Assembly (NCBI RefSeq): GCF_032854445.1
Contig: NC_088304.1
Span: forward strand, 21,367,850 to 21,431,849
DNA from: Liolophura sinensis
Lineage: Eukaryota > Mollusca > Polyplacophora > Chitonida > Chitonidae
DNA length: 64,000 nt
Direction of reading: 5' to 3'
Shown: one piece after another, positions 6,740 through 27,864 of the stretch
Layout of the letters: each line of letters begins with the position of its first letter
Position numbering within the stretch: position 1 is the first letter of the stretch
The notes under the pieces: model-generated
The model's database searches: none
What the model was told of the DNA's origin: nothing
Seen by the model: the letters and a program-made list of their open reading frames with translations, nothing else
Position numbers and translations under genes: made by a program

Positions 6740-7389
6740 TCTAATTTAGATTGTAAAGTAGAATGTTTGATCTACTCAAACAATATAACACGTTCCATTT
6801 TTCATCTTCCTAGGGTCTACAGACAGCAACATGAAGAGGATCGATCAGTATCCATGCAGAAAGTCATTTCCAAAGTCTCAAAACCTGCAAAAAGATGAAG
6901 GTGTTGCTATAAAACACATATGCAACAATTTTCCCATGATCTCATTATAAACCATGCTACATGGATCGCTAGATCAGGAGAATCAGAGTGCCTAGCACTG
7001 GCTGTGTGCATGCTAGTATGTCGTGTGCACTTCTTTGGTTCCATATCTGGAAATAACAGTATGATCCCCGTCTCGCGCACATGGGTCGCAGCACTAGAAC
7101 GGTACCACCTGCGCGCGATTTGCACCGTCCTCGTGCCGCGGGCCGCCAGGCAAAATGTCCTCATCCCGCTTCCACACATTAGTCTGTGTAGACTGAGAAA
7201 ATTATACTTCTTCACACCAAGCTAACGAATGTAATTTTGTCTCCAAAATCAAGTGAAAAGGTGCATAAATCTCGCTCAGCTTACTCTCCAAAAATTTAGT
7301 CCACGTTTGAGAAAGGGCTACCATTTATATAGGTGAGGAATCCATTTAATATATTTGGATCAACTCACCTACTGTGTAATTCAGCACAG
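6740..7389. other. MGST3 cassette B 3' flank
   Basis: Contains a locally GC-rich, CpG-containing patch around 7065-7170 and the candidate ATTAAA signal for the minus strand near 7345. Both strands hold ~100-codon ORFs at 6907-7225 that match no family I recognise. Confidence 0.4.
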
Positions 7390-7502
7390 TTAACACTTCA
7401 CAGGCACCCAGTGAAGGAGATGGAAAGCCAGGGATAGTGTGTTGCCCACAAGCAGAATCATGGGAATTACCCCAAAGCTGCCCCATTTGCACTTGCTTGG
7501 AT
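7390..7502 (-). CDS. mgst3: MGST3 exon 5B (cassette B, C-terminal, stop TAA)
   Basis: The acceptor is actttccttccag; the exon completes an Asp codon and reads DPSKCKWGSFGVIPMILLVG, NTLSLAFHLLHWVPVKC, stop. The Asp-Pro-Ser start, fourth hydrophobic segment, WVP and a near-terminal Cys fit MGST3 C-termini. A variant polyadenylation signal ATTAAA occurs on the minus strand at about 7345-7350, some 40 bases past the stop. Confidence 0.87.
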
Positions 7503-10500
7503 CTGGAAGGAAAGTAACAAAATCGTCATAGTACTATATAGACATATAAAGTGTCCCGTCACAGAGCTATCAGGCCACAGGAAGTACCATGCCCAATCTT
7601 CTCCTGGGAGTTAGAATACTGTACTTGTATATCCAAACTGATCAAGGAAACTAGATGTGCACAAATTAGCCAGAACAGTTAAAGGCCACAACAAAGGCTT
7701 GCCCGCCTATATTACCCATATGCATATCTCTGAAAATCAACAGAGGGTCACATAGTTATAAAAATGGACAGATCGTCTTGTAGTCAGAAGTATGGACAGA
7801 AGATCTCATAGTGAGAAGAATGGACAGAAAATATTGTAGTCAGAAGAATGGGCAAGCTGTGTTGTAGTCAGAAAAATGGACAGAAGGTCTTGTAGTCAGA
7901 AATATGGACAGACCATCTTGAGGTCAGAAAAACGGACAGGCCATTGTGTAGTTGAAATAATGGACAGAAGATCTAGTGGGCAGAAGAATGGACGGAAGGT
8001 CTTGTCAGAAGTATGGACAGAGGGCCTCGAAGTCAAAATAATGGACAGAAGGTCTTGTTGGCAGAAGATTGGACAGAAGGTCTCGTAATCAGAACAATGG
8101 ACAGAAGGTCTCTTAATTAGAGGATGTACAGAAGGTCTCGTAGTCAGAGAATGGACAGAAGGTCTTGTAGTCAGAACAATGGACAAATGGTCTAGTGGTC
8201 AGAAGAATGGAAGGAAGGTCTTGTTTGTGAGAAGGTCTCGTAGTCAGAATACTGGACAGAAGGTCTTTTAATTAGAGGATATAGAGAAAGTCTCGTAGTT
8301 AGAGAATAGACAAAAAGCTTTCGTAGTGAGAAGAATGGACAGAATGTCTTCTTGTCAGAAGAATGGACAGGTGATCTCGGAACAATAGACAGATTTATTT
8401 ATTTATTTTATTTATTTCATTGCTGTTTTATGCCGTACTCAAGAATAATTCACTTATACGACGGTGGCCAGCATTATGGCGGGTGGAAACCGGGCAGAGC
8501 CCAGGGGGAACCCACGACCATCCGCAGATTGCTGGCAGACCTTCCCACGTACGGCCGGAGAGGAAGCCAGCATGAGCTGGACTTGAACTCACAAACAATA
8601 GACAGAAGGTAGTCAGAAGAAGGGGTAAATGATCTAGTAGTCAGAAGAATGGACAGATCGTCTTGTAGTCAGAAGTATGGACAGAAGATCTCATAGTCAG
8701 AAGAATGGACAGAGGATCCTGTAGTCAAAAGAATGGAGATATGGTCTCGCAAACAGATGAATGGAGAGGCTGTCTTGTAGTTAGTAGAGTGGACTAACGG
8801 TCTCGTAGACAGGAAAACAGACAGACAATCGCGTGGTCAGAAGTCAGTGATAAGTATAGAGACAATCCTGTAGACAGACAGACTTATGTCTTTTAGTCAG
8901 AAGACAGGACAGGTCAACGGTCTCTAAGTCAGAAGAACAGAGGTCAGTCAAGACCACTTTGCGGAACCACACCCTGTACCTGGACACGCATCTTCCGGAC
9001 ACAAATCCTATCCATATACCGCAGGCATTGGATTAACTGTTCACATAGGCTAGTTTATTGTTTTAAAGCTGTTCTACAAACATTTCGGTCTGCCAGCAAC
9101 CTGTGGATGGTTGTGGGTTTCACCTGGGGTCTGCCCGGTTTCCTCCCACCATAATGCTGGCTGCCGTCGTATAAGTGAAATATTCTTGAGTACGGCGTAC
9201 AACACCAATCAAATAAATAAATAAATAAATATAAACATTTCACGTATCGGGTGACCACTTGACTCACGGATAGCTGGAAGCTGGGAGAGATTAAAGTCTA
9301 CTCCAGCATTATTATTATCCCCAGCATTATGAAATGTCAAATGCCAAGACATTGTAACATAAATTTGCGAAAATGTGCGAGTCTTTGAGAAGTGTTTCAT
9401 GTCAGCTGAACCCTTACATGCCTTTGTGATATATATACTTAATATTCTGAAATTAGGGTTCAATGTTCTACAATTTTTCAATTACACTGTATATGACATC
9501 AGTCAGGTTTATGGATGAATAAAACCAGATTCTCCACAGTAAACCACCAAGCACATATATCTAAGAGTACCTGACCAAATCCTTTTCCTTAAAACACCGC
9601 CAAAACAGTGAAAGTTTGACTGGAACACTCAACCTAAATGGTGGCAGGGAGCCTGCGCCATTTTTAACCACCCGATCAAGCAATGCTAAATAAACCTAAA
9701 TCCGGCACTCCAGTCCACATACCTCCAGTGTAGTATCCTTTGGCATAGAGCACCCTGCTCACCAAATAGGTCAGCCCAATCGCTGAGGTCAGCCTCTACA
9801 ACACAGACATGGAATAGAGCTTCCTGCATACAACGAAAGGTCAGCCTTATCACTGAGATTAGTCTCTACAATACAGACATGGAATAGAGCTTCCTGCACA
9901 CAACAAAAGGTCAGCCTTATCACTAAGGTTAGTCTCTACAACACAGACATGGAATAGAGCTTCCTGCACACAACAAAAGGTCAGCCTTATCACTAAGGTT
10001 AGTCTCTACAACACAGGCATGGAATAGAGCATCCTGCACACAAGATATGTCAGCCTTATCACTGAGCTCAGCCTCTACAACACAGACATGGAATAGAGCA
10101 TCCTGCACACAAGATATGTCAGCCTTATCACTGAGATTAGTCTCTACAATACAGACCTGGAATAGAGCTTCCTGCACACAAGATATATCAGCCTTATCGC
10201 TGAGCTCAGCCTCTACAACACAGACATGGAATAGAGCATCCTGCACACAAGATATGTCAGCCTTATCACTGAGATTAGTCTCTACAACACAGACATGGAA
10301 TAGACCTTCCTGCACACAACAAAAGGTCAGCCTTATCACTAAGGTTAGTCTCTACAACACGGGCATGGAATAGAGCTTCCTGCACATAAGATATGTCAGC
10401 CTTATCACTGAGCTCAGCCTCTACAACACAGACATGGAATAGAGCATCCTGCACACAAGATATGTCAGCCTTATCACTGAGATTAGTCTCTACAATACAG

Positions 10501-13500
10501 ACATGGAATAGAGCTTCCTGCACACACGATATATCAGCCTTATCGCTGAGCTCAGCCTCTACAACACAGACTTGGAATAGAGCATCCTGCACACAAGATA
10601 TGTCAGCCTTATCACTGAGATTAGTCTCTACAACACAGACATGGAATAGAGCTTCCTGCACACAAGATAGGTCAACCTTATCACTGAGGTTAGTCTCTAC
10701 AACACAGACATGGAATAGAGCTTCCTGCACACAAGATATGTCAGCCTTATCACTGAGGCTAGTCTCTACAACACAGATATGGAATAGAGCATCCTGCACA
10801 CAAGATATGTCAGCCTTATCACTGAGATTAGTCTCTACAATACAGACATGGAATAGAGCTTCCTGCACACAAGATATGTCAGCCTTATCACTGAGATTAG
10901 TCTCTACAATACAGACATGGAATAGAGCATACTGCACACAAGATATGTCAGCCTTATCACTGAGATTAGTCTCTACAACACAGACATGGAATAGAGCTTC
11001 CTGCATACAAGATATGTCAGCCTTATTACTGAGGTTAGTCTCTACAACACAGACATGGAATAGAGCATCCTGCACACAAGATATGTCAGCCTTATTACTG
11101 AGGTTAGTCTCTACAACACAGACATGGAATAGAGCTTCCTGCACACAAGATATGTCAGCCTCATCACTGAGGCTAGTCTCTACAATACAGACATGGAATA
11201 GAGCTTCCTGCACACAAGATATGTCAGCCTTATCACTGAGATTAGTCTCTACAACACAGACATGGAATAGAGCTTCCTGCACACAAGATATGTCAGCCTT
11301 ATCACTGAGGCTAGTCTCTACAACACAGATATGGAATAGAGCATCCTGCACACAAGATACGTCAGCCTTATTACTGAGGCTAGTCTCTACAACACAGACA
11401 TGGAATAGAGCTTCCTGCACACAACATATGTCAGCCTTATCACTGAGGTTAGTCTCTACAACACAGACATGGAATAGAGCATCCTGCACACAAGATATGT
11501 CAGCCTTATTACTGAGGCTAGTCTCTACAACACAGATATGGAATAGAGCATCCTGCACACAAGATATGTCAACCTTATTACTGGGGCTAGTCTCTACAAC
11601 ACAGACATGGAATAGAGCTTCCTGCACACAAGATATGTCAGCCTTATCACTGAGGCTAGTCTCTACAACACAGATATGGAATAGAGCATCCTGCACACAA
11701 GATATGTCAGCCTTATTACTGAGGTTAGTCTCTACAATACAGACATGGAATAGAGCTTCCTGCACACAAGATATGTCGCCTTATCACTGAGGCTAGTCTC
11801 TACAACACAGATATGGAATAGAGCATCCTGCACACAAGATATGTCAACCTTATTACTGAGGCTAGTCTCTACAACACAGACATGGAATAGAGCTTCCTGC
11901 ACACAAGATATGTCAGCCTTATCACTGAGGCTAGTCTCTACAACACAGATATGGAATAGAGCATCCTGCACACAAGATATGTCAGCCTTATCACTGAGGC
12001 TAGTCTCTACAACACAGATATGGAATAGAGCATCCTGCACACAAGATATGTCAGCCTTATCACTGAGATTAGTCTCTACAATACAGACATGGAATAGAGC
12101 TTCCTGCACACAAGATATGTCAGCCTTATCACTGAGATTAGTCTCTACAATACAGACATGGAATAGAGCTTCCTGCATACAACGAAAGGTCAGCCTTATC
12201 ACTGAGATTAGTCTCTACAATACAGACATGGAATAGAGCTTCCTGCACACAACAAAAGGTCAGCCTTATCACTAAGGTTAGTCTCTACAACACAGACATG
12301 GAATAGAGCTTCCTGCACACAACAAAAGGTCAGCCTTATCACTAAGGTTAGTCTCTACAATACAGACATGGAACAGAGCTTCCTGCACACAAGATATGTC
12401 AGCCTTATCACTGAGATTAGTCTCTACAATACAGACATGGAATAGAGCTTCCTGCACACAAGATATGTCAGCCTTATCACTGAGATTAGTCTCTACAATA
12501 CAGACATGGAATAGAGCTTCCTGCACACAAGATATGTCAGCCTTATCACTGAGATTAGTCTCTACAATACAGACATGGAATAGAGCTTCCTGCACACAAG
12601 ATATGTCAGCCTCATCACTGAGGCTAGTCTCTACAACACAGATATGGAATAGAGCTTCCTGCACACAAGATATGTCGCCTTATTACTGAGGTTAGTCTCT
12701 ACAACACAGATATGGAATAGAGCATCCTGCAGCCTTATCACTGAGGCTAGTCTCTACAATACAGACATGGAATAGAGCTTCCTGCACACAAGATATGTCA
12801 GCCTTATCACTGAGATTAGTCTCTACAATACAGACATGGAATAGAGCTTCCTGCACACAAGATATGTCAGCCTTATCACTGAGATTAGTCTCTACAATAC
12901 AGACATGGAATAGAGCTTCCTGCACACAAGACATGTCAGCCTTATCACTGAGATTAGTCTCTACAACACAGACATGGAATAGAGCATACTGCATACAAGA
13001 TATGTCAGCCTTATTACTGAGGTTAGTCTCTACAACACAGACATGGAATAGAGCATCCTGCACACAAGATATGTCAGCCTTATCACTGAGGCTAGTCTCT
13101 ACAACACAGACATGGAATAGAGCTTCCTGCACACAAGATATGTCGCCTTATTACTGAGGTTAGTCTCTACAACACAGATATGGAATAGAGCATCCTGCAG
13201 CCTTATCACTGAGGCTAGTCTCTACAATACAGACATGGAATAGAGCTTCCTGCACACAAGATATGTCAGCCTTATCACTGAGATTAGTCTCTACAACACA
13301 GACATGGAATAGAGCTTCCTACACACAAGATATGTCAGCCTTATCACTGAGATTAGTCTCTACAATACAGACATGGAATAGAGCTTCCTGCATACAACGA
13401 AAGGTCAGCCTTATCACTGAGATTAGTCTCTACAATACAGACATGGAATAGAGCTTCCTGCACACAAGATATGTCAGCCTTTCCTGCACGTAATAATAGG

Positions 13501-16500
13501 TCAGCCTTATCACTGAGGTTAGTCTCTACAACACAGACATTGAATACAGCATCCTGCTCACCAAATAGGTTAGCCCGATCTCTGAGGTTAGTCTCTACAG
13601 CACAGGCATGGAATAGAGCTTCCTGCACATAATAATAGGTCAGCCTTATCACTGAGGTTAGTCTCTACAACACAGGCTTTGAATACAGCATCCTGCTCAC
13701 CAAATAGGTTAGCCCGATCTCTGAGGTTAGTCTCTACAGCACAGGCATGGAATAGAGCTTCCTGCACATAATAATAGGTCAGCCTTATCACTGAGGTTAG
13801 TCTCTACAACACAGGCTTTGAATACAGCATCCTGCTCACCAAATAGGTTAGCCCGATCTCTGAGGTTAGTCTCTACAGCACAGGCATGGAATAGAGCTTC
13901 CTGCACATAATAATAGGTCAGCCTTATCACTGAGGTTAGTCTCTACAACACAGGCTTTGAATACAGCATCCTGCTCACCAAATAGGTTAGCCCGATCTCT
14001 GAGGTTAGTCTCTACAGCACAGGCATGGAATAGAGCTTCCTGCACATAATAATAGGTCAGCCTTATCACTGAGGTTAGTCTCTACAACACAGGCTTTGAA
14101 TACAGCATCCTGCTCACCAAATAGGTCAGCCTCATCACTGAAGTTAGTCTCTACAGCATACACAGGGGATAGAGCTTCCTGCACACAAGATAGGTCAGTC
14201 TTATCACTGAGGTTAGTCTCTACAACACAGACATGGAATACAGCTTCCTGCACACAAGATAGGTCAGCCTTATCACTGAAGTTAGTCTCTACATGGAACA
14301 GAACTTCTCGCACACAAGATAGGTCAGCCTTATCACTGAGGTTAGTCTCTACAACACAGACATGGAATAGAGCTTCCTGCACACAAAATACGTCAGCCTT
14401 ATCACTGAGGTTAGTCTCTACAACACAGACATGGAATAGAGCTTCCTGCACACAAGAATAGGTCAGCCTTATCACTGAGGTTAGTCTCTACATGGAGCAG
14501 AACTTCTCGCACACAAAACAGGTTAGCCTCATCAATGAAATTAGTCTCTACAACACAGACATGAAATGGAGCTTCCTACACACAAGACAGGTCAGCCTTA
14601 TTACTGAGGTTAGTCTCTACAACACAGACATGAAATGGAGCTTCCTACACACAAGATAGGTCAGCCTTATCACTGAGGTTAGTCTCTACAACACAGACAT
14701 GGAATAGAGCTTCCTACACACAAGATAGGTCAGCCTTATCACTGAGGTTAGTCTCTACAGCATACACAGGGGATAGAGCTTCCTGCACACAAGATAGGTC
14801 AGCCTTATCACTGAAGTTTGTCTCTACATGGAACAGAACTTCTCGCACACAAGATAGGTCAGCCTTATCCCTGAGGTTAGTCTCTACAACACAAAAATGG
14901 AATAGAGCATCCTGCACACAAGCTAGGTCAGCCTCATGGAGGTTAGTCTCTATAACACAGACATGGAACAGAGCTTCATGCACACAAGAATAGGTCAGCC
15001 TTATCACTAAGGTTAGTCTCTACAACACAGGAATCGAAATCACAGCGATGGCATTGGTGAGAGGCTACTGGATCATTACTGGGTCATTATTAGCTAGCTC
15101 GCTAATTAACTGAGCCATGGAGGCCCCGCTATATGTGTAAGTTGTACCATAATATATACATATTATGTTTTATTGGCATAAATATTACATTAAGAAAATT
15201 AGGATTCTGCATTCAAAGTATGTGGACACTACTTTCAGTTTTATTAATGTTAAACATTTTGTTTTCCTACCCACCTAGTGAAAAAAATTAATACCACCCA
15301 AAAATTCCTATGGCGTTGTTTTTGAAAACCTTTAGGACATAGTCCCACCATAATGCTGGCCGCCGTCGTATAAGTGAAATATTTTTGAGTACAGCGCAAA
15401 ACACCAATCAAATAAATAAATAAATTATAACAGGATTTGCCAAAACGACAAAAATGTAAAAACCTTTCCAATTTGGTTCAGAAAACATCCTTGCAGTTTA
15501 AACTTATATTATGCTAGTGACTAAAAAACCCTTGTGTGACATACCAACTTTTGCCTGTTGGAAATGTGTTAGAAACCTTCTCAGACTATATCCCAGAAAC
15601 CAACCACTACTAACATGATTAAGATGGTTGTATATATTTGTGTTGTACTGGATCCTAATACATGCATATAAGTAAGTAGCATGAAGTTAGCACTGGTTGC
15701 ATACATTAAACTTTGCTTATTATACTTACGGGATATTGCAGTCCGCCAAACAACGTCAATATAATGAAACTTGTTTGATTTTCCAGCCTGGAAATAAATA
15801 CATCACCTTAATTGAAGACAAATATGGTTTTTACAGTAAATGTGGTTTTAAAAAGAAAAAGAAATGATTGTAGATTGTAGAAATTCTGTACACACTTTGC
15901 GCTTTCCTCCCATACATTATCTTAAATTGGCATTTAGGCTACCACAATCTCTGCAGGTTTATTTATCATCAAGTGAATGAGGACTTCTTTTAATTATATA
16001 TGACGAAATGTTTCAGTGTGGTTATTTGATGTGCCTGGAATGGATTAGTATCAGTCTAGGCTGATGTAGTCACAGCATGGGGAATAAGTTAACGGACCCT
16101 GGGTGTTTCAAACAATCACACCTCCCTAAAAGAGACAATATCACCTGTCATCTTGATTGGCAAACATGACAGATATAGGTACAAGTATATGGAGAGTATG
16201 TTTTTGTTTTGTGATAAGTGCAATGAAGGAAACAAATAGTTTGTCTCAAAGGCTGCTTTCAGTTCTACCAGAAGTTGGATTGAACCTGCATCTCATTGGT
16301 CCTCTTGGCCAGAAACAAACTCCCTGAATGTGCCGAACAACTACATGCAAGAACATGAATACACAGCACTGGTGTATACATCACCAGACTGTCTGAATGC
16401 ACAGCACTAGAGTATATATTGTACAATGTCAGACTGTCTGAATACATAGCACTAGTGCATACATTCCCAGACTGCCTGAACACACAACACTGGTGCATAC

Positions 16501-19500
16501 ATGTACAATACCAGGCTCCCTGAATACACAGCACTGGTGCATACATCACCAGACTGTCTGAATGCACAGCACTAGAGTATATACTGAACAATGTCAGACT
16601 GTCTGAGTACATAGCACTAGTGCATACATTCCCAGACTGCCTGAACACACAGCACTGGTGCATACATGTACAATACCAGGCTCCCTGAATACACAGCACT
16701 GGTGCATACATCACCAGACTGTCTGAATGCACAGCACTAGAGTATATATTGTACAACGTCAGACTGTCTGAATACATAGCACTAGTGCATACATTCCCAA
16801 ACTGCCTGAACACACAACACTGGTGTATACATGTACAATACCAGGCTCCCTGAATACACAGCACTGGTGTATACATGTACAACACCAGGCTTCCTGAATA
16901 CACAGCACTGGTGTATACATGTACAACACCAGGCTCCCTGAATACACAGCACTAGTGCATACATGTACAATACCAGACTGCCTGAATACATAGCACTAGT
17001 GCATACATTCCCAGACTGCCTGAACACACAGCACTGGTGCATGCATGTACAATACCAGATTTTCTGAATACACAGCACTGGTGTATACATGTACAACACC
17101 AGGCTCCCTGAATACACAGCACTGGTGCATACATGTACAATACCAGGCTCCCTGAATACACAGCACTGGTGCATACATGTACAATACCAGGCTCTCTGAA
17201 TGCACAGCACTAGTGCATACATGTACAATACTAGACCGCCAGAATACACAGCACTAGTGCATACATGTACAATACCAGGCTCCCTGAATACATAGCACTG
17301 GTGCATACATGTACAATAGCAGACCGCCAGAATACATAGCACTAGCGCATACATTCCCAAACTGCCTGAACACACAGCACTGGTACATACATGTACAATA
17401 CCAGGCTCCCTGAAAACATAGCACGGGTGCATACATGTACAATACCAGACCGCCAGAATACATAGCACTAGCGCATACATTCCCAAACTGCGTGAACACA
17501 CAGCAATGGTGCATACATGTACAATACCAAGCTCCCTAAATACACAGCACTGGGGCATACATGTACAACACCAGGCTGCCTAAATACACAGCACTAGTGT
17601 ATACATGTACAACACCAGGCTCCCTGAATACAAAGCACTAGTGTATACATGTACAATACCAGGCTGCCTAAATAAACAGCACTGGTGTATACATGTACAA
17701 TACCAGGCTGCCTGAATACACAGCACTGGTGTATACATGTAAAATACCAGACCGCCAGAATACATAGCACTAGTGCATACATTCCCAAACTGCCTGAACA
17801 CACAGCACTGGTACATACATGTACAATACCAGGCTGCCTGAATACACAGCACTGGTGTATACATGTACAATACCAGGCTGCCTGAATACACAGCACTGGT
17901 GTATACATGTACAATACCAGACTGCTAAAATAGAGCACTAGTGCATACAATACCAGATTTTCTGAATACACAGCAATGATGTATACATGTACAATACCAG
18001 GCTGCCTGAATACACAGCACTAGTGCATACAATACCAGACCACCAGAATACACAGCACTAGTGTATACATGTACAATACCAGACCGCCAGAATACACAGC
18101 ACTATTGTATACATGTACAATACCAGACCGCCAGAATACACAGCACTATTGTATACATGTACAATACCAGACCGCCAGAATACACAGCACTAGTGTATAC
18201 AATACCAGGTTTTCTGAATACACAGCACTGGTGCATACATGTACAATACCAGGCTGCCTGAATACACAGCACTAGTGCATACATGTGCAATACCAGACCG
18301 CCAGAATACATAACACTAGTTCATGCATTTCAAGACTGCCTGAATACACAGCACTGGTGTATATATGTACAGTACCAGGCTGCCTGAATACACAGCACTG
18401 GTGTATACATGTACAATACCAGACTGCTAGAATAGAGCATTAGTGCATACAATACCAGATTTTCTGAATACACAGCACTAGTGTATACATGTTCAATACC
18501 AGTCTGCCTGAATACACAGCAGTAGTGCATCCATGTACAATACTAGACGGCCAGAATACACAGCACTACTGGACACAACAGACTGCCTGAGTGTGCTAGA
18601 GTGTCTGAATGCATAACACTAGTGCATATAACATCAGACTACATTTTTTAATGAATATCTACACTGTTATATTGTAACACTCAACTGTGCAACAGAAACT
18701 GAACAAACGCAAGACTTCACACTTGACAATACTTTATTAATGATATATCATTTCAGAATAAGCAAAGCCTACAACTCAGACATCACCAGTTACAAGTGAT
18801 AACAAAATTATATGCATATATGATACAAACAAAGCACGCCTGAAAAATGTGAGTTTTTGATCACATGTTACAATTTGCCCGCAAACCATGATTCCTCTGG
18901 ACTGATCTTAAAATTAAACTAAATCCCTATCTATTCTTTAGCATTCCTATTTCCACAATCTCCAACATTATATATATAAGGCACAGATGTTTATTTTTTT
19001 TATGAAGTGTGCATTTTAATACCTTTTATTTTCTGTCTATACATTTTTTATAGGATTCAAGCAGACGTTTCTGTTCACTAATTCTGTCAATGGACCACTA
19101 GATTAGCTCCAACATTAAAATTTCATTCAGAATTAAAACATATCATAGATTCTATATTCTTGCAAAACAAGATGCATTTCTATAAGCAATTTACAACAAA
19201 CAAATCAATCTTTAAATTTCCTCATAATCACGGGCCTAACATACAGCCAGTCTCTCTAAATCTAGACTTAAACGTGCCAAATATCTCCAGTCCTGCAGAA
19301 GTTTCTAAACGCATGTTTGTAAAATCAGGGCTGCAGCTAAAAACAGATTAACAAAACTAACAGCAATTTTTCAAAAGCTGGGAACATTAGAGTTCTTAAT
19401 GAACACCACAAAAAAAAAACCTCTGAGCAACAATTAAGACATACTAAATTTTATTACATGTATGTCTAGTACACGTACCTTTACAAAAAAGCTCTATAAA

Positions 19501-22500
19501 ACAATCATATACTCACATTGCAAAACATGTGACAAAAAATTAGTACTACTTTAAAAACCTGACAATGTTTTATATAACCTGATACCGATTTGCTCAGTTC
19601 TGATCAATCAGAAGCTATCACACCATGCTTACTCCTCATCAGGTTCAGTGCAACATGGAAATGTACTGTCTCACAGTTAGTCTAGATTAGGCCATATTGA
19701 AAATGTTTGAATCAAGAATGTTGGAGTGTCCATACATCTGGGATACAACCACCAGGAGCTACCTGGACAAGCAATCTACCACTGATACCTGGAAACAGAT
19801 AAGAGAAAAACAAAGTTAACTATGGTCAGATTTTTTGCATGCTGGACATGTATGGATTTTCAATAGCTTTAGTGTTTCAAGGAACTAAAGGCTGCACGTT
19901 AAACAAAATTAAATTAACAGTCCTAACAAAGGTGGTATTTTATTTATTTATGTGATTGATGTTTAATGCCATGCTCAAGAATATTTCACTTATATAACAA
20001 CAGCCAGGATTGTGGTGGGAGGAAACGGGGCAGCGTCCCACGGAAACCCGTGAACATGTGCATATTGCTGACACCCATTTCCACGTAGCCCACATGAGCT
20101 GGACTTCACCTCACCGCGACTGCATTGGTGAGAAGCTCATCACCTTAAGTCTAACCACCTTGACCCCCTGCATGTCATAAAGACTGAGGAAAACAAACAG
20201 GGATTTTAATGGATGTGGTGCTTGAAGGAATTGAAGGTCATAAATTAAATAAAATTAAGTTAAAATTAAAAGGCCATGAAAATTCGGACATGAACGTGCT
20301 CACTGAATGCCAACATGCACTGTATATGTACTCACAGGATTTTCTGATTATCATGCTGAAGTATTCAAAAAATAATTCCCTTTCAGTCACTGTATATAAC
20401 AAATATGATGCCCAACCCACTCTGTCCAGTCTCAAAATCGACATTTTCAGACTTCACCAACAATTCTTTTACCACATAATAGTTACTTATAGTCCTCTAC
20501 CCCATGCTGGTTACAACCTCCCTGCAACATAATTACAATCCCCCTGCAACATGGTTACAATTCCTCGCTGTAATGACATGATGGTTACAGCCCCTTACTT
20601 CATGATGGTTACGAAGCTCCTAATGTTGTCAAGAGGCACCCACTTGAGCTGATGGGCACAGAAGGAAATGGTGTGTCCCAGGAGAAGTAGCATCGACAAG
20701 TGGCCCCAAGCACCCCACTTACGGTTACTGGGGTCTGTGAAGGAAGCAAAAAATAGCCAATGGTCACAAAAATAAACGCAATCATACCATTGACATCTAA
20801 ATGGACCTGTAGCATCTTTTTCTTTCAAATTGAATGATGCTTTATTTTGTACCTAGCATTCACTGATGCAGCCTTGGATCAGATTTATTTATTACACTCC
20901 CACTTATTTTTCTTTTACTTATAACCTTGAGTATCCAGAATAAGTAACTGGCTTTTTTTAAATCTTTTCAGCAGTTTCAGATAATCTTCTTTATATTGGT
21001 TGGAGCACTGCCAAACTGCTCCAAGATCCCCAGATAAGCTATCAACCAAGGACCCACAAATATGGACTTGGGAAGGATGGGGGTGGGGGATGTACATGTA
21101 GAATTCCATGTCAAAGGTTGATGTTCGGGTTTTTATGCGAGGAAGAATCCATATTGAACTTTAAGAACTTCTTGGTGTAAAGTGAATCAGCAGAAGCTGG
21201 CCTGATGAACAGGACACCTCACCGGTCATGGGCCTTCCTCACCACATCTGACAGCAAAGTTTAAGGTTTGGGGTTGGGCTTACCTCCAGTGTAGTATCCC
21301 TTGGCATAGAGAACCCGACTGACCAGGTAGGAAAAGCCTACAATAGCTGTTAGTCTCTACAAAAAGAAAAGAACAACAACACAATGAATACAACATGGTT
21401 ATGACCATTGAGGGTAACACTGTCCTCTAGAATGTATATGTATCATTGTGTGTTACACAATGGTGGTATAAATAACAGGGGGAATAAAAACAGATTGCTT
21501 GAAGTACACCATCACATGTATTTGAAGAATACATCACATGAAGAATACTTCACTTGCCCGACGGCAACAGCATAATGTTGGGTGGAAACCGGGCTGGGGA
21601 AACCCACGCGTATCAGCAGCCTCCTGACAGACCGTTCCACGTACGACTGGAGAAGAAGCCGTTCTGAACACCTGACACCAGTTTATCTAGTATCATCACC
21701 TCAAATACTTCAACCGTTCTGAACACCTGACACCAGTTATCTAGTATCCTCACCTCAAATCTTCAACCGTTCTGAACACCTGACACCAGTTATCTAGTAT
21801 CCTCACCTCAAATCTTTCAGGAGTTCTGAACACCTGACACCAGTTCTCTAACCTCTCCTCTCAATCCTTCAGTAGTTCTGAACACATGACAACAGTTCTC
21901 TAACAACCTCCTCTCAAATCTTTCAGAAGTTCTGAACACCTTACACTAGTCCTCTAACCTCCTCTCAAATCTTCTCACAGAAGACAGATGACTTAATTTT
22001 GACTCGCTGCCCAGAGTAGAATATGCATCATTTCCAGCATATTAGTAAGTTCTAACTTACTGTGTGGAAACTCAGCAACATCCTCCACATCCATGTTCAG
22101 TTCAGGTTTTGATGCACCCATTTAAGTGAAGGTGGGAAAATTGCTTTACCTGAAATGTACCTTTACTACTTAACAACAAAACAGCAAAAAAATGCCCAAA
22201 ACCAGTAGGTCATAGGTTTTTTTTTTTACCTAAAACAATCTTTGTGGATGAAGCCGCACTTGGTTACGAAGTACAACATCAGTGTAAATGTACAATTCAC
22301 TGGCTGTGACTTCAGTGTAATGTGTCATCACTCGTGTCAATGTATGGCCAATGAGTCATGTATCTGTACCGGTCGCAGCGTAGATGTACGGTACCAAATA
22401 CTTACAGGATATTGCAATCCTCCAATAACACTCAGCACAATGGAAGGTTGGCTGGTTTTCCAATCTGAAAAAGAAGAGCACATGATATATCCTACAATCA

Positions 22501-25500
22501 GTATACACACAATCAGTACACGGTGTAAATGCTATGAGCAGACCATTCATGGTGCAATCAGTACACACACCGGTGTGTAAATGCAATGAGCAGACCATTC
22601 ATTGTGCAATCGGTACACACGCCAGTGGTGTAAATGCTATGAACAGACCACTCAACATGCAACCAGTACACACACTGGCGGTGTAAATGCTATGAGCAGA
22701 CCACTCAACCTGTAATCAGTACACACAACAGTGGTGTAAACGCTGAGCAGACCACTCAACATGCAATCAGCATGTAATTTGCATCAATGATGTGTCACAG
22801 TAAGAACAAGCACACATGAATGGTCCATCCCACAGATTATATGATCATGCAAACATAGCATTATTCTACAAATGCACTGAACTCTGAGAGGACATATAAT
22901 TTATCATCCTAAATAGATGAATGGACTCAACATGTAATTGTATTTTCTCATGGCAATGAAATAATGTAACTAGTTTGTAACAAAGTAACAGAATGGTTAG
23001 TTGAGTTAGAATCATCCTACCTGTATAAAAAGAAGAGCTGCCATTTGAACAAACAGGAAAACAACCGACACGATCTCGCTCATTATGCGCGTCTTTATGC
23101 ACACGCAGCCAGGGAGTGTTTCTTACCAACGCAGTCATAAGTTCTTTTCAAGATTGTACAGGTATTTTTAAACTAGACATCACTTGGTTACAGCTCAGAC
23201 ATTTCTGAGACATGTCTGGATATGTGAAATATGGTGGTCATTTTTGTGAGAAAAAAATTAAAAAAAAGACAACAAACTATATATCAGGAGGAAGAAGGGT
23301 AGAATCAGGCCTCAATGGCCTGTGCCACATTTTCATTCAAACTGCTACATTTTATGACATTTTCATTCAAACTGGAGACCACTACAAATAGAGGAAACCA
23401 GTCACAGCCAGGCATCAACCAGTACCAGCAAAGTACAAAAGAAACCAGTCACACCAGAGGAAACACAGACAGCACAAAGAAAATAAAGGAAGTAGTAAGA
23501 CCACAGAGGAAACCAGTACAGCCACAGTAAGAGAAAACACAACATGGAAGACATCAGAAAACGTGAAGAAAAAAAAAAAAAGGGAGATAAAACCAATCAC
23601 TCCACATAAGAAACTTGTCACACCACAGAAAAAGCAGACAGAGCAAAGGGGAAATGGGTCGCACAACTGAGGAAAATTGCAACACCACAAGGGAAACCAG
23701 CCAAATCTCGGAGCTAACCAGTCACACTGAAGACAGTCACTTGATATGCGAAATCCGTTATATCATAGAGGAAACCAGTTACACCATAGAGAAAAACCAG
23801 TAACAACATAAGGCAAATGAGTCACACCAAAATAAGAAACCAGTTATACTACTAGAGAAACCAGTCACACCATAGAGGAAACTAGTGGTAGCCTATGAAC
23901 TTTCGTACACTTCAGTGCTTAAGTATTAGCCTACTTCAGTGCTTAAGTATTAGCCTACAAGTATGAACTTATGTGTTCTGATGTGCTCTGATGGTAGCCT
24001 ATGACCTCTAGTGGTAGCCTGTGTTCTGATGTGCTCTAATGGTAGCCTACGAGCTTGTGTGTTCCAATGTGCTCTATCGGTAGCCTGTGTTCTGATGGGC
24101 TCTATTGGTAGCCTATCAATTTATGTGTGTTGATGTGCTCGTGCAGAGACCTGCAAGAAGAATCCACGAGTCCAGCACTGACGCATAGGCATGTTGTATT
24201 GGAGTAAGTAAATAATGCTCGCAAGTGTCATACTTTATTCACTGACATACACTGTGTGGTTTTGAAAATTGTTAACAGTAGGAATAAAATAATCTCTCAA
24301 AACTGGCTGCTGGGGCTAAATTCACTGTTTCTGTGGAAATCACTTTTCTGTACAACTCCCCTGGTCGCAATTTAATCAGGGGGGCCTCCGTGGTTCAGTC
24401 GGTTAGCGCGCTAGCGCAGGGTAATGACCCGGGAGCCTCTCACCAATCCAGTCGCTGTGAGTTCAAGTCCAGCTCATGCTGGCTTCCTCTTCGCCTGTAA
24501 GCGGGATGGTCTTCCAGCAACCTGTGGATGGTCGTGAGTTTCCCTCGGGGTGTACCAGGTTTCCTCCTACCATAATGCTGGCCGCCATCGTATAAGTGAA
24601 ATATTCTTGAGTACGGCGTAAAACACCAATCAAATAAATAAACAAATAAATAAATAAATCAATTTAATCAGCAATGATGTAGGCCAATCCTGAAAACTTC
24701 ACCAACAAACCAGTCAGATTAAAAAAATACACCAGCTATTTGGGGTTACTTGTTCAAACCACCAGTAGCTGTGGCTTAGTTTACATGTCCGTCCACTGAA
24801 AGTAGCATACAGTGAAAGGTCTGCAGCCTGGTGACGCCCGATTCTGACATGAACATATGAGTTTTGGGTGATCGTCTTTTTTTTTTTTCAGTTCTTTTGA
24901 CAGGAGGCTTACACGATCCTTGCAGTGATATGAATACATGATGTTATTTAGGCATTGGCTTTATACAAACGGGACAAATGGTAAGGCATTAGCATGAAGG
25001 ATCAAGCAGAGGCATGGCCACACAAGACTACTGTCTGCCCATGTTGGGGTGCGTTCCTAGGCGAAGAAAGCGTGCTATAGCACGCAGAGGCACGGCCACA
25101 CGAGACTTGTCTGTCGGTGTTGGGGCGAGGTCCTAGGCGAGAAGCGTGTGCTAATGCACGTGCTTTATTCACAAGAAAGTCACGTTTGTTTGTGAAATTT
25201 ATGCGAAGATTTGGCCAGTTCACTATAAAATATCTGTTGCATGGTTCTACATGGCATAATACATGTGTAGATCAAAATTAGTGTGCCAACCGTCGACACC
25301 ATTCAGAGACATGGATCGCATATTTTGTTGTCCAGAGGTAGGTTATACATTTCAAGATAAATTTTCCGCTTTTCACAGCTAGTATATGTTCAAGCTGAAA
25401 TGCTGGGACTGTACCTTCACTTGCAAACTTGGATAGGCCTATGTCTGTAGACGGAACTATATTCACACCTTTCAACGATAATCTCTGATAAAACCCAGTA

Positions 25501-27864
25501 GAGAGTTTGTCAACCATCAGTGGAGCGTTATTCAGTATCTCGGAGCGCTACACAAGCGGTAAACAATTGACTTTTAACCTGGGCTGTACTGAATATGTGA
25601 AAATCGATTGGCATTGGAGATTTAGAACAGCTGTCTTACCCTATCTTGTTTTCTGCGCCCCCTTGGTTTAGAAATATGGACAAGAGTACACCAGAATCAA
25701 AGATAACAAACTATTCTAGGGGTCAAATACTCTTACTTCTGTTCCCCTTTATTTTACAGCTGTAAGTGTAATGGTTATTATTGTAATTTGGGTGAAATAT
25801 GTATGGTTCCTTCACTGTTTTTATCTATTTCCATTATGCCCCTTTGCTTTCTGAACAATTCAGGAAACGGGTGTGGCTTTACACTAAATTTTGATGAGGG
25901 AAGGTTTCCTAGTTCAGCAACCATGGAAGTCAATGTGTGTATACTGTTTCTTTAGTGTTTACTGCATGAACTTTTGAGTTTATGGAACATACACTGACTA
26001 CACTACAAAGGAATGCCTACCTGTCAACTTGTGGGCTCTCATGTGCTCCAGTGGAAGCCTATCAATCTACATGGTTTTGATGTGCTCCAGTGGTAATCTA
26101 TCAACTTACGTGTTCTGATGTGCTCTCTGTATACAGTTGAACGTCTTGCTGGTTGGACTGTACATATCTGGATACTGCAAAACAATAAAGCAACACTTCA
26201 GTCATGTAAAATACAAGAAAATGCCTGTGCATATACTCCTAGCTCAAGACATTCTTAATTCGTGTCTGTTAATTTTAGGACTTCAATGACCTCCAACAAT
26301 GATTTATTTTCAGAAGACCAAATGCGAGCCACGAAATTTGAGTGGTTGACATAACCAAGAAATTGGTTACGAGTTCCAAGCCTTGAATAGCCGATCGTTC
26401 GGTTTCGTCACAATGCAAAAACAAACTAGTTGTTCGCGCAAACTTGCTACGTGAACATTTGGCTAATAAAGTCATCTACAGTACTTCCTAGCTGTGTTTT
26501 TCCTTTTATTTACTTTCACTTGAGCAAAGCCTATTACTTTGTGTACGAAGTTTGTCATACTGCAGTACAGTCAGCCATCATACTTGTCCAGCGGAATCCT
26601 CGGGTAGCACAGTGGGAACATAGGGGGCCGCACCATGAACAGTGATCAGCATAGATCAGGGTGGATCAGGAAGTCGCTAAAAAACATGTCATACATGCTG
26701 AAAATAATGTGGCATGTGTTATATTCCTGTGTATTTTTATTTTCTTTTGATGATTAATAATTACTTTTATAGTTAGCTACTTGTAGTGTGTGTAATATTC
26801 AACTGGCTTATCGAGCCCTAACTGATAAAATGATTACATCCACAGGGCGAAATGATACAAGCATTGACATGAGGGAATGTCAGTGATGACCAACTCATGG
26901 AAAGTTGTTGAGTAGTAAAAGTTTAACTTCAGTTGAAATTGAATGTCACCTTTCTCTACTAACCGCTACTTTATCTGCCTACCTCTAGCTCACCAAGACC
27001 ACAATACATGAGTGACGAATGCCGCCACCTAGCACGTGTTGTGTACATAACAAAGGAGATATATAGTCCTCATGCCCACAGCAGCAAAATGTGGCTGAAA
27101 GTCGAAACGTACGTTCTGACCAAAATATTTTAATATTTTGTTTTAACACAAAAGCCTTCAATGGAGTCACCTATAGGCTGTCGCTAAGTTAATAGGTCGT
27201 TTGTAGACTGGACTTGACAGCACATAACAGGAGAGAGCGCAGATGCATTGATAAACAGAGCGCTGACCTCAAGAAATTTGGTCAGAGCAGAAAGCTGGCG
27301 ACTATGTATTATGTATTTAGTGCATAATGGCATTGAGTTTACAGTCATTAAAACACTTTGCAGCATCACAGCACCAAAAGATGAGGATTGCCAGCAACCT
27401 TGTGAGCGTAACACCCAGTTTAAGTGCTACATTTTGTGGGGATGTTCCGGTTGACAGATCAGGGTAACTGATTTATAGGTCTGCACAATTACACTCCAAG
27501 TAACCACCATGCAAACGATCGTTTTGTTTACGTCAAATTTCATGGCCTGCAGATGCATACAATTTTGTTCAAAGAGAAAGCAAGTACAAGGCAAGTGAAC
27601 GTAAACTGGAGTAATTGTAATATAAACTGAACTCTTAACGCATGTATCAACTAGTGAAATTTGCAAACCCTGAGCCAGATCCCATTTTAAAATTTTGAGT
27701 CCAGTGATTTCCAACTCTGCCTATCTTACCTCCACCTCGTACTGTTTCCTGGCCTTGCCAACATTATAGGCCATCCACATGTTCACAAATGTACTGCCCA
27801 CTGTTGTGAACAACACATAGCCATAGTTCTCTGGAAGCAAGTCTGCAAACTTGGACGATGACAT
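7390..27864 (-). CDS. mgst3: Microsomal glutathione S-transferase 3-like gene (whole locus, two alternative 3' cassettes)
   Basis: Coding exons on the minus strand join as 27730-27864, 26110-26174, then either 3A-4A-5A (22406-22464, 21284-21356, 20595-20734) or 3B-4B-5B (15730-15787, 9723-9795, 7390-7502). The B form reads without a break for 147 residues, close to the roughly 150 of animal MGST3. Family signatures seen are NYGYVLFTTVG (first membrane segment), FNCIQRAHQNTLEN, GGLQYP, RVLYAKGYYTG and a hydrophobic last segment before HWVPVKC. MAPEG proteins are four-helix membrane proteins of ER or outer mitochondrial membrane; MGST3 members conjugate or reduce lipid peroxides with glutathione. 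The acceptor 10 bases before the ATG implies a noncoding first exon upstream. I found no second copy of exons 1 and 2. Whether the cassettes are alternative 3' ends of one gene or the remains of a tandem gene duplication cannot be decided here. Confidence 0.85.
7763..8960. repeat. 28-bp minisatellite within MGST3 intron 4B, split by a SINE
   Basis: Units of about 28 bp, core tggacagaaggtct then cgtagtcagaaga, with many substitutions and small indels. A SINE with target-site duplication has landed in it (8393-8593). Confidence 0.88.
8393..8593 (-). mobile_element. SINE family 1, 5'-truncated, with 12-bp target-site duplication
   Basis: Tail at the left (tttatttattttatttattt), core cagcattatggcgggtggaa, ends at the ctggacttgaactcaca junction without the tRNA head. 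aacaatagacag occurs on both sides (8381-8392 and 8594-8605). Confidence 0.92.
9088..9231 (+). mobile_element. SINE family 1, 5'-truncated
   Basis: Starts in the middle (gtctgccagcaacctgtgg), then ccaccataatgctggctgcc, the conserved 3' block and an aataaataaata tail. In MGST3 intron 4B. Confidence 0.9.
9723..9795 (-). CDS. mgst3: MGST3 exon 4B (cassette B, 73 bp), seed of the adjacent array
   Basis: Reads RLTSAIGLTYLVSRVLYAKG then YYTG plus one base. The acceptor is ctgtgttgtag, the donor GGAG|gtatgt. The 5.2-kb array directly upstream (on the gene strand) is built of copies of this acceptor and the first ~50 bases of this exon. The true exon is the last member of the array and the only one with the GYYTG end and a donor. 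Confidence 0.88.
9796..15040 (-). repeat. 69-bp array copied from the MGST3 exon 4B acceptor (about 75 units)
   Basis: On the minus strand each unit has a copy of the intron end (ctgtgttgtag) joined to the first ~50 bases of exon 4B (AGACTAACCTCAGTGATAAG...). In the 13.5-14.1 kb units, 43 of the first 50 exon bases match the real exon. Read in the exon frame a unit gives RLTSVIRLTYLVCRKLYSMS VL and then stops at the TAG of the next copied acceptor. The unit length, 23 codons, also leaves another frame open on both strands (up to 496 codons minus, 465 plus). The array fills intron 3B up to the true acceptor. Confidence 0.9.
13484..14115 (-). repeat. 139-bp higher-order unit inside the exon 4B-derived array
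   Basis: Here two diverged ~69-bp halves alternate and the pair repeats almost without change every 139 bp (successive starts near 13588, 13727, 13866, 14005). One half keeps the most exon-like sequence of the whole array (gctaacctatttggtgagca). Near identity points to recent amplification. Confidence 0.85.
15041..15729. other. MGST3 intron 3B remainder
   Basis: Between the array and exon 3B: unique AT-rich sequence plus one SINE fragment. No exon seen. Confidence 0.5.
15341..15427 (+). mobile_element. SINE family 1, 3' fragment
   Basis: gtcccaccataatgctggcc, tataagtgaaatatttttga, aacaccaatc and an aaataaataaat tail. Confidence 0.85.
15730..15787 (-). CDS. mgst3: MGST3 exon 3B (cassette B, 58 bp)
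   Basis: One base completing Thr, then LENQTSFIILTLFGGLQYP. This continues the QNTLEN motif of MGST3 and the second membrane helix. The acceptor is gattttccag and the donor CCC|gtaagt. In frame with exons 2 and 4B, unlike its twin 3A. Confidence 0.87.
16320..18620. repeat. 44-bp minisatellite upstream of MGST3 exon 3B (about 50 units)
   Basis: Typical unit gtgcatacatgtacaatacc then aggctccctgaatacacagcactg; 38-bp variants contain tgcatacattcccagactgc. On the minus strand one frame reads MYTPVLCIQGAW repeatedly, reminiscent of MYSP...CIQRAH of MGST3 exon 2 (see findings). The long minus ORFs (up to 258 codons) are by-products. Confidence 0.9.
18733..19793 (-). other. Possible alternative last exon / 3' UTR of MGST3 cassette A
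   Basis: On the minus strand a strong pyrimidine-rich acceptor (ctcttatctgtttccag) ends at 19794. If joined to the AA|gtaagg at the end of exon 5A, it gives ...IMKYQW and a stop. An AATAAA signal on the same strand lies at 18733-18738, about 1 kb on. The whole stretch lacks arrays and SINEs, unlike its surroundings, as expected of a transcribed UTR. This rests only on motifs and spacing. Confidence 0.3.
19938..20172 (-). mobile_element. SINE family 1, diverged near-complete copy
   Basis: Tail ttttatttatttatg at the left, core aagaatatttcacttatata and caggattgtggtgggaggaa, then ctggacttcacctcaccgcg and a decayed tRNA-like head (aagtctaaccaccttgaccc). Confidence 0.8.
20595..20734 (-). CDS. mgst3: MGST3 exon 5A (cassette A, C-terminal)
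   Basis: The acceptor is ccttcacag; the exon completes an Asp codon and reads DPSNRKWGAWGHLSMLLLLG, then HTISFCAHQLKWVP and a 13-residue tail ending VTIMK before TAA at 20595-20597. This is the fourth membrane helix. The tail is longer than that of exon 5B (VPVKC). The stop overlaps a donor-like AA|gtaagg, so splicing to a further exon near 19.79 kb is possible. Confidence 0.8.
21284..21356 (-). CDS. mgst3: MGST3 exon 4A (cassette A, 73 bp)
   Basis: Reads RLTAIVGFSYLVSRVLYAKG then YYTG plus one base. This is the third membrane segment and the R-x-LYA-x-GYYTG signature of MGST3. The acceptor is ctttttgtag and the donor GGAG|gtaagc. Its length and phases are identical to exon 4B; they differ mainly in the first half (AIVGFS against SAIGLT). 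Unlike 4B, it has no repeat array next to it. Confidence 0.85.
21536..21668 (-). mobile_element. SINE family 1, internal fragment
   Basis: Core only: gcataatgttgggtggaaac, cgggctggggaaacccacg, ttccacgtacgactggagaa. In MGST3 intron 3A. Confidence 0.7.
21665..21990. repeat. ~53-bp minisatellite in MGST3 intron 3A
   Basis: Units begin gttctgaacacctgacacca and continue with gttatctagtatcctcacct. About six copies, progressively diverged to the right. Confidence 0.85.
22406..22464 (-). pseudogene. mgst3: MGST3 exon 3A (cassette A), +1 frameshift
   Basis: Good acceptor (ctttttcag) and donor (CCT|gtaagt). The exon aligns with exon 3B over its whole length, but is 59 rather than 58 bp because of an extra C (TTCCATT against TTCATT). 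It starts as LENQPTF in frame and, one frame over, ends as IVLSVIGGLQYP. As printed, joining exons 2-3A-4A would run out of frame. It is either a decayed exon or a one-base assembly or sequencing error; the flanking splice sites are intact. Confidence 0.75.
22480..22770. repeat. ~53-bp minisatellite beside MGST3 exon 3A
   Basis: Five or so units with gtgtaaatgctatgagcaga and ccactcaacatgcaatcagt. Lies immediately upstream (gene strand) of exon 3A but shows no exon sequence. Confidence 0.85.
23390..23900. repeat. Degenerate short repeats (gaggaaaccagtcacacc)
   Basis: Purine-rich plus strand with loosely periodic agaggaaaccagtcacacca motifs. In the MGST3 intron between exons 2 and 3A. Confidence 0.7.
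23905..24150 (-). repeat. Repeats derived from the MGST3 exon 2 donor end (distal cluster)
   Basis: About five units of 38-39 bp carrying gtgttctgatgtgctct, the plus-strand form of the exon 2 end (AGAGCACATCAGAACAC), followed by a non-exon block tggtagcctat. The donor itself is mutated in most units. The source exon is 2 kb away at 26110. Confidence 0.7.
24380..24659 (+). mobile_element. SINE family 1, full length, 12-bp target-site duplication
   Basis: tRNA-like head with A box (tggttcagtcgg) and B box (gagttcaagtcc), central core gtaccaggtttcctcctacc ataatgctggccgcc, conserved 3' block gtacggcgtaaaacaccaat and an aaataaataaat tail. Flanked by caatttaatcag on both sides (24368-24379, 24660-24671). 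A good reference copy for the family. In the MGST3 intron between exons 2 and 3A. Confidence 0.95.
25008..25160. repeat. Two-copy ~77-bp tandem duplication
   Basis: gcagaggcatggccacacaa ... cctaggcgaagaaagcgtg is repeated once as gcagaggcacggccacacga ... cctaggcgagaagcgtg. Confidence 0.8.
26022..26103 (-). repeat. Repeats derived from the MGST3 exon 2 donor end (adjacent copies)
   Basis: Two imperfect 38-39 bp units directly abutting the real exon 2/intron boundary. Each has tgatgtgctcc-like exon sequence and tatcaa(c/t)ctac, aligning with the true tatcaacttacgtgttctga; the donor GT is altered in both copies. Confidence 0.7.
26110..26174 (-). CDS. mgst3: MGST3 coding exon 2 (65 bp)
   Basis: Reads YPDMYSPTSKTFNCIQRAHQN plus two bases of the next codon. 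FNCIQRAHQNT is the most conserved MAPEG/MGST3 loop, taking part in glutathione binding. The acceptor is gttttgcag and the donor AC|gtaagt. It starts in phase 0 after exon 1 and ends in phase 2, which fits both exon 3 versions (G or A completing a Thr codon). Imperfect copies of its donor end lie just beyond it and near 24 kb. Confidence 0.88.
27730..27864 (-). CDS. mgst3: MGST3 coding exon 1 (start codon, 45 codons)
   Basis: Reads MSSSKFADLLPENYGYVLFT and on through VGKARKQYEVE. The ENYGYVLFT and NVGKARKQY blocks match the MGST3 N-terminal membrane helix and the basic loop that follows. The ATG at 27864 is the first in the exon; 10 bases upstream is an acceptor (tgtttttctcag, exon edge 27874), so the 5' UTR is split. 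The donor GAG|gtaaga leaves phase 0. Confidence 0.88.

Follow-up and report, generated by a model that had tools for sequence, protein, structure and literature searches.

A 76-copy intronic minisatellite in MGST3 of the chiton Liolophura sinensis, resembling the intron 3B/exon 4B boundary

The DNA analysed here, called the window throughout, is a stretch of 64,000 nucleotides (nt) from the chiton Liolophura sinensis (contig NC_088304.1, positions 21,367,850 to 21,431,849; positions below count from its first letter). It carries MGST3 on the minus strand, with two sets of 3′ exons, A and B, and exons of a nitric oxide synthase gene (NOS) on the plus strand. The subject of this report is a minisatellite of 76 units that lies in intron 3B of MGST3 and runs into exon 4B, and that had been described in a first-pass annotation, made by a model from the letters alone, as built from the acceptor and first part of that exon.

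MGST3 and the intron 3B array

On the minus strand, the MGST3 exons were found in the order 1, 2, 3A, 4A, 5A (27864 to 20594), followed by 3B, 4B and 5B (starting at 15787, 9795 and 7502), with the array ahead of exon 4B (a slash within a motif marks the exon end):

27730-27864, minus strand: MGST3 exon 1
26110-26174, minus strand: MGST3 exon 2
22406-22464, minus strand: MGST3 exon 3A, one base longer than 3B (59 nt, not 58) and, as assembled, out of frame
21284-21356, minus strand: MGST3 exon 4A, paralogue of 4B, used for polarising changes
20594-20734, minus strand: MGST3 exon 5A
15730-15787, minus strand: MGST3 exon 3B, 58 nt
9796-15034, minus strand: intronic array, 76 units, mostly 69 nt, each with an intron tail of 15-20 nt (ending in TGTGTTGTAG) followed by some 49-54 nt from the head of exon 4B
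9723-9795, minus strand: MGST3 exon 4B, from which the units derive and which alone is followed by a donor (GAG/GTATGT)
7388-7502, minus strand: MGST3 exon 5B, with terminus WVPVKC-stop

The tandem organisation at 9796-15034 was confirmed using Tandem Repeats Finder (TRF) and by cutting at the copied acceptor, which produced 76 decoy units (52 of 69 nt, 14 of 70, three of 68, three of 60, two of 55, one of 66 and one of 96) plus the real exon, in keeping with the roughly 75 acceptor copies reported in the first pass. No gap separates the array from exon 4B, the authentic exon standing at the array end and the copies being intronic; as the first-pass annotation had stated, the real exon is the only unit with a GYYTG end and a donor. 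Over exon positions 1-54, the 69 units of 68-70 nt (the seven outside this length range excluded) matched exon 4B at 38-45 nt, with a mean of 41.6, against a maximum of 32 in 5000 54-mers from the window and 34 in 5000 shuffled units. The alignment of unit to exon 4B, named beforehand as the comparison on which the idea should stand or fall, is therefore beyond chance, and the earlier figure of 43 of the first 50 bases proved to be the top score without gaps, which 4 of the 76 units attain. With exon 4B plus 15-nt flanks as query, blastn gave another 77 matches in the region at E<0.01, every one of them in gene sense.

For the direction of copying, changes were polarised with exon 4A as the third sequence and a consensus built from the 52 units that are 69 nt long; numbers are small. 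Exon 4B and the unit consensus differ at 12 sites, five private to 4B and seven private to the units. The five comprise four synonymous changes (Arg, Leu, Ile, Leu) and one Val to Ala, while the seven comprise five replacing changes (Gly to Arg, Ser to Cys, Val to Lys via two sites, Ala to Ser) and two silent ones, the last of the seven, position 52, being one that may derive from the intron at the junction. Since the exon-private changes are mostly synonymous and the unit-private changes mostly replacing, the exon is the source and is under selection, and the units are not; copying from the repeat into the exon was ruled against by the same polarised changes. Alignment, controls, strand and polarised changes support the first-pass claim that the array derives from the acceptor and first part of exon 4B, with source, direction of copying and strand all shown. 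Because the units are closer to exon 4B (mean 41.6) than to exon 4A (31.3), the array appears to have been seeded after the 4A/4B split.

A minus-strand scan, and tblastn with the peptides of the two exons against both strands, detected no second MGST3 exon 1 or exon 2 in the window, and exons 3B-4B-5B are therefore more aptly taken for a second cassette of 3′ exons than for a complete gene B; they are perhaps alternative last exons of one MGST3 gene. An L. sinensis database protein (P0001) contains exact translations of exons 1, 2, 4A and 5A (45, 21, 24 and 45 residues); it is labelled 'LOW QUALITY' by its source and reads exon 3A in a corrected frame. The extra base of exon 3A, an assembly error or a true lesion, agrees with that label. 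Only the two combinations with 3B, among the four exon combinations tried, are open to the end. Comparison of the A and B sets across exons 4 and 5 (168 nt) gave differences at 76% of synonymous sites and 24% of nonsynonymous ones, and both sets are therefore old and constrained; exons 4B and 5B look to be under constraint, and the 3B-4B-5B frames are open. A search with the 1-2-3B-4B-5B protein did not recover the B protein itself; among the matches listed (120 of 447), the best was P0001 at 81% identity. The C-terminus of P0001 reads MKYQW, as opposed to MK-stop in the window (20594-20600), which suggests splicing at GAA/GTAAGG ahead of the stop.

Splice signals, reading frame and turnover in the array

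The last 11, 15 and 19 intron bases of the real acceptor are present exactly in 44, 27 and 24 of the 76 decoys, respectively, and since 24 decoys are identical over 19 nt, acceptor strength alone is insufficient to mark the real site. A second GCAG and a CT(A/G)AC motif each occur in 66 of 76 units. Only one donor-like GT within the array reaches 7/9 of the consensus, as opposed to a mean of 14 (range 4-26) in 328 control stretches of equal length; among the real donors, 11 of 12 score 7-8, the twelfth having been scored one base off. When each unit was read in the gene frame from its own acceptor, 56 of 76 stopped exactly at the TAG of the next copied acceptor, one stopped earlier and 18 later, and the last decoy (9865) met no stop before 9700, yet with the exon 4B frame shifted. 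The earlier statement that each unit ends at the next copied TAG therefore holds for the 56 and fails for the rest.

Across all unit pairs, identity averages 0.897. Near neighbours (lags 1-4) stand at 0.905-0.929, pairs at lags 15-40 at 0.890-0.904 and those at lag 50 at 0.870, the differences in between being slight. The units comprise 54 distinct sequences, of which 44 are singletons and one is present eight times, and a two-unit block of 139 nt is repeated at 13594-14150. These patterns are in line with partial or local homogenisation of the units. Identity to the exon in blocks of ten units, from far to near, is 0.749, 0.796, 0.773, 0.758, 0.763, 0.757, 0.772 and 0.781, with no clear rise toward exon 4B at this block size.

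Other exon-derived copies in the window

Further copies, of which the first-pass annotation made no mention, were found at NOS exons d and f and at MGST3 exon 2, all in gene sense and in the adjoining intron. NOS was recognised by a PF02898 match at exon b, and its exons were placed by tblastn:

23962-24140, minus strand: donor-side copies of MGST3 exon 2 in intron 2, with the last 17 nt of the exon and the donor flank
26037-26109, minus strand: degenerate 39-nt copies of the donor-side boundary of MGST3 exon 2, immediately following it
56175-56317, 57380-57542 and 58419-58510, plus strand: NOS exons a-c
60167-60308, plus strand: NOS exon d
60309-60500, plus strand: NOS exon d donor-side repeat, 65-nt units, with roughly the final 50 nt of the exon and a donor copy
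61105-61194, plus strand: more NOS exon d donor-side copies, 0.8-0.9 kb downstream in the same intron (44/52 nt, score 64)
62041-62180, plus strand: NOS exon e
62290-62753, plus strand: NOS exon f acceptor-side array, ~53-nt units of the intron tail TTTCTGTTGACCAG and ~24 nt of exon head
62754-62928, plus strand: NOS exon f

At NOS exon d, the best stretch of 60309-60500 matched at 52/54 nt (score 98, with shuffles at most 27 and window segments at most 20), and two copies there carry GTAATC instead of the true donor GTAAGC. The copies of this exon at 60309-60500 and 61105-61194 are among the best-preserved exon echoes in the window. At NOS exon f, the best match of 62290-62753 was 32/36 nt (score 40, with shuffles at most 23 and window segments at most 26), with two blastn matches at E<0.01 and four acceptor copies with 0-1 mismatches. 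In MGST3 intron 2, blastn gave three matches at 23962-24140 (E 7e-7 to 1e-3), the best copy being identical at 23 of 24 positions (score 43, controls at most 22), with its donor changed from GTAAGT to ATAAGT. The copies at 26037-26109 were weak without the exon's own copy (13/14 nt, score 23, controls at most 19; none at E<0.01). Every exon echo at E<0.01 lies in gene sense in the adjoining intron; matches no more than 20 nt away from the exon in question, and those between paralogues (3A/3B, 4A/4B), were excluded. No exon-derived copies were found at NOS exons a-c or e by the TRF-consensus test described below or by blastn. NOS exon a has an apparent GC donor, AAG/GCGAGT (56317-56320), judged via the frame with the next exon.

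Open frames of up to 496 amino acids run through the intron 3B array because its unit length, 69 nt, is divisible by three; since the sister array units are 65, 53 and 39 nt, a coding repeat is unlikely, and this candidate was rejected.

TRF clusters were compared with 14 exons, and 4 of 40 beat 100 of 100 shuffles, each in sense and at the abutting exon (the NOS f cluster narrowly, 25 against 24), while 36 of 40 did not. TRF consensuses can include the exon's own copy, and without it three of the four were clear and that at exon 2 was weak; the negatives are incomplete, 23962-24140 having been missed by this test, and some of the exon ends used in it were misplaced by one to a few bases. The stretch 16356-18568, which lies between exons 5A and 3B, holds ~51 copies of a 44-bp unit with no exon likeness beyond shuffles (14 exons). 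Arrays of period at least 10 occupy 25% of the window, and covered 4 of 25 splice boundaries, with 6.3 expected by rotation (P(>=4)=0.79, from one 64-kb window), so that no excess of arrays at splice boundaries was seen in this window, and splice boundaries as special targets found no support. Because boundary coverage is no higher than under rotation, the arrays look like ordinary minisatellite birth rather than a splice-targeted process, with products tolerated on the intron side.

Origin of the array and comparison with known systems

The reading favoured here, with a probability of about 0.83, is that a minisatellite was born at the intron 3B/exon 4B boundary of MGST3, now has 76 copies, and is decaying in the intron, as an array of the type called 'mirage' in amphioxus. 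Birth would have been a short tandem duplication spanning the boundary, followed by growth to 76 copies through slippage or unequal exchange, and by decay inside the intron, free of coding constraint. Transcripts would survive because a donor lies only behind the real exon 4B, exon definition presumably letting the decoy acceptors be skipped, or because their products are lost. The same process would have produced the donor- and acceptor-side arrays of NOS and the donor-side copies of MGST3 exon 2, the boundary arrays being the boundary-touching share of a minisatellite-rich region.

Several observations weigh against this reading. Of the supposed birth step only an imperfect likeness is left at exon 4B, CTATGCC in the exon and CGATTCC in the intron flank. 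At NOS exon d, ACGCAGGT is found within the exon and again at its donor, 59 nt apart, which differs from the 65-nt unit; birth between these direct repeats was tried and rejected, since the 59-nt spacing does not explain a 65-nt unit. For the B cassette, whose use is putative, the closest listed database match, P0001, carries the A exons. The low donor count in a homogeneous array amounts to one event counted repeatedly and is no sign of selection, and the homogenisation signal is small.

A functional array is an unlikely alternative, in which the copied acceptors and branch-point-like motifs would slow or weaken splicing to exon 4B in the manner of a sponge or rheostat, with copy number tuning use of the B cassette. 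The 24 decoy acceptors equal to the real one over 19 nt and the presence of GCAG and CT(A/G)AC in 66 of 76 units each are in its favour, as is the human TERT VNTR6-1, an intronic variable number tandem repeat (VNTR) with a 38-bp unit that affects splicing, intron VNTR length being tied to splicing there (PMC11830802, in the portion of the source available). That repeat shares with the chiton array its length, intronic position and moderate unit size, but differs in that no exon origin of its unit is stated in the same portion. Against function, the unit-private changes carry no sign of coding constraint, and the sister arrays are small and sit at other exons and genes, which fits a by-product. 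About as doubtful is a view of splice boundaries as hot spots for minisatellite birth, for instance through AG-GT motifs or transcription-linked breaks, with exon seeding being specific; four boundary arrays in two genes within 64 kb, on donor and acceptor sides, are what it would predict, but the rotation test and the spacing of the AGGT-bearing repeat in NOS exon d run counter to it. Slightly less credence still is given to a wider proposal, that introns of this chiton, outside the lancelets, grow genome-wide through exon-boundary minisatellites and that the 76-copy array is a length-variable rheostat for joining the B cassette, isoform ratio varying with copy number among individuals.

Collapsed or expanded reads may in principle have made the array or its copy number, given 14x HiFi coverage with a mean read of 8.3 kb (PMC11068029, available portion; probably the assembly of the window) and the one-base frame error or real lesion in exon 3A. 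This is improbable, however: 44 of 54 distinct unit sequences are singletons, the units fall in ordered blocks, the 5.2-kb array is shorter than the mean read, and comparable exon-derived copies occur at other boundaries. Derivation of the exon from the repeat, or likeness by convergence, has nothing for it beyond the likeness itself and is most unlikely, exon 4 being conserved across 4A, 4B and MGST3 of other molluscs, the units being farther from 4A than from 4B, and controls reaching at most 34/54.

The first-pass annotation regarded exon-seeded arrays of this size as an undescribed class, which the literature contradicts. As far as the available portions of the sources go, minisatellites over intron-exon boundaries, termed mirages, are described in several amphioxus genes, among them Adh3 and the globins BflGb6 and BflGb9 (PMC3087553), to which troponin C and PGBD5 were added (PMC3902484); the amphioxus data suggest that mirages leave regular splicing undisturbed, with somatic instability at Adh3 (PMC3087553). 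The chiton array has the structure of a mirage, a class already described: units span the boundary, arrays lie on the acceptor or the donor side, and many units keep splice signals. Concerted evolution is present in the amphioxus mirages and only indicated in the chiton array, and the host is a mollusc rather than a cephalochordate, host group being no part of the structural definition. The chiton array is larger than the amphioxus cases with a stated copy number, with 76 copies of mostly 69 nt compared with six and three copies of 150-160 nt in two BflGb6 haplotypes. No boundary-spanning minisatellite outside lancelets was recognised among the papers listed, which says little on print at large.

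A second relative is intron gain by duplicated AG-GT proto-splice sites (Rogers; Gao and Lynch 2009; Zhuo et al. 2007, as cited in the available portion of PMC3087553), which likewise duplicates an internal gene segment along with its splice motif. The chiton case differs in that an existing intron is lengthened and no new intron is seen, and the spacing of ACGCAGGT at NOS exon d is not that of its units.

The finding extends mirages, met so far in the lancelet literature, to a mollusc and to two unrelated genes in one 64-kb window, and its copy number of 76 is above the cases with a stated number (3 and 6) in the portions available. The locus is a natural setting in which to test how the spliceosome picks one acceptor out of 77 similar ones. 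It would also provide a test of boundary-spanning minisatellites as intron lengtheners, and perhaps as seeds of new introns, arising as a neutral by-product of repeat turnover.

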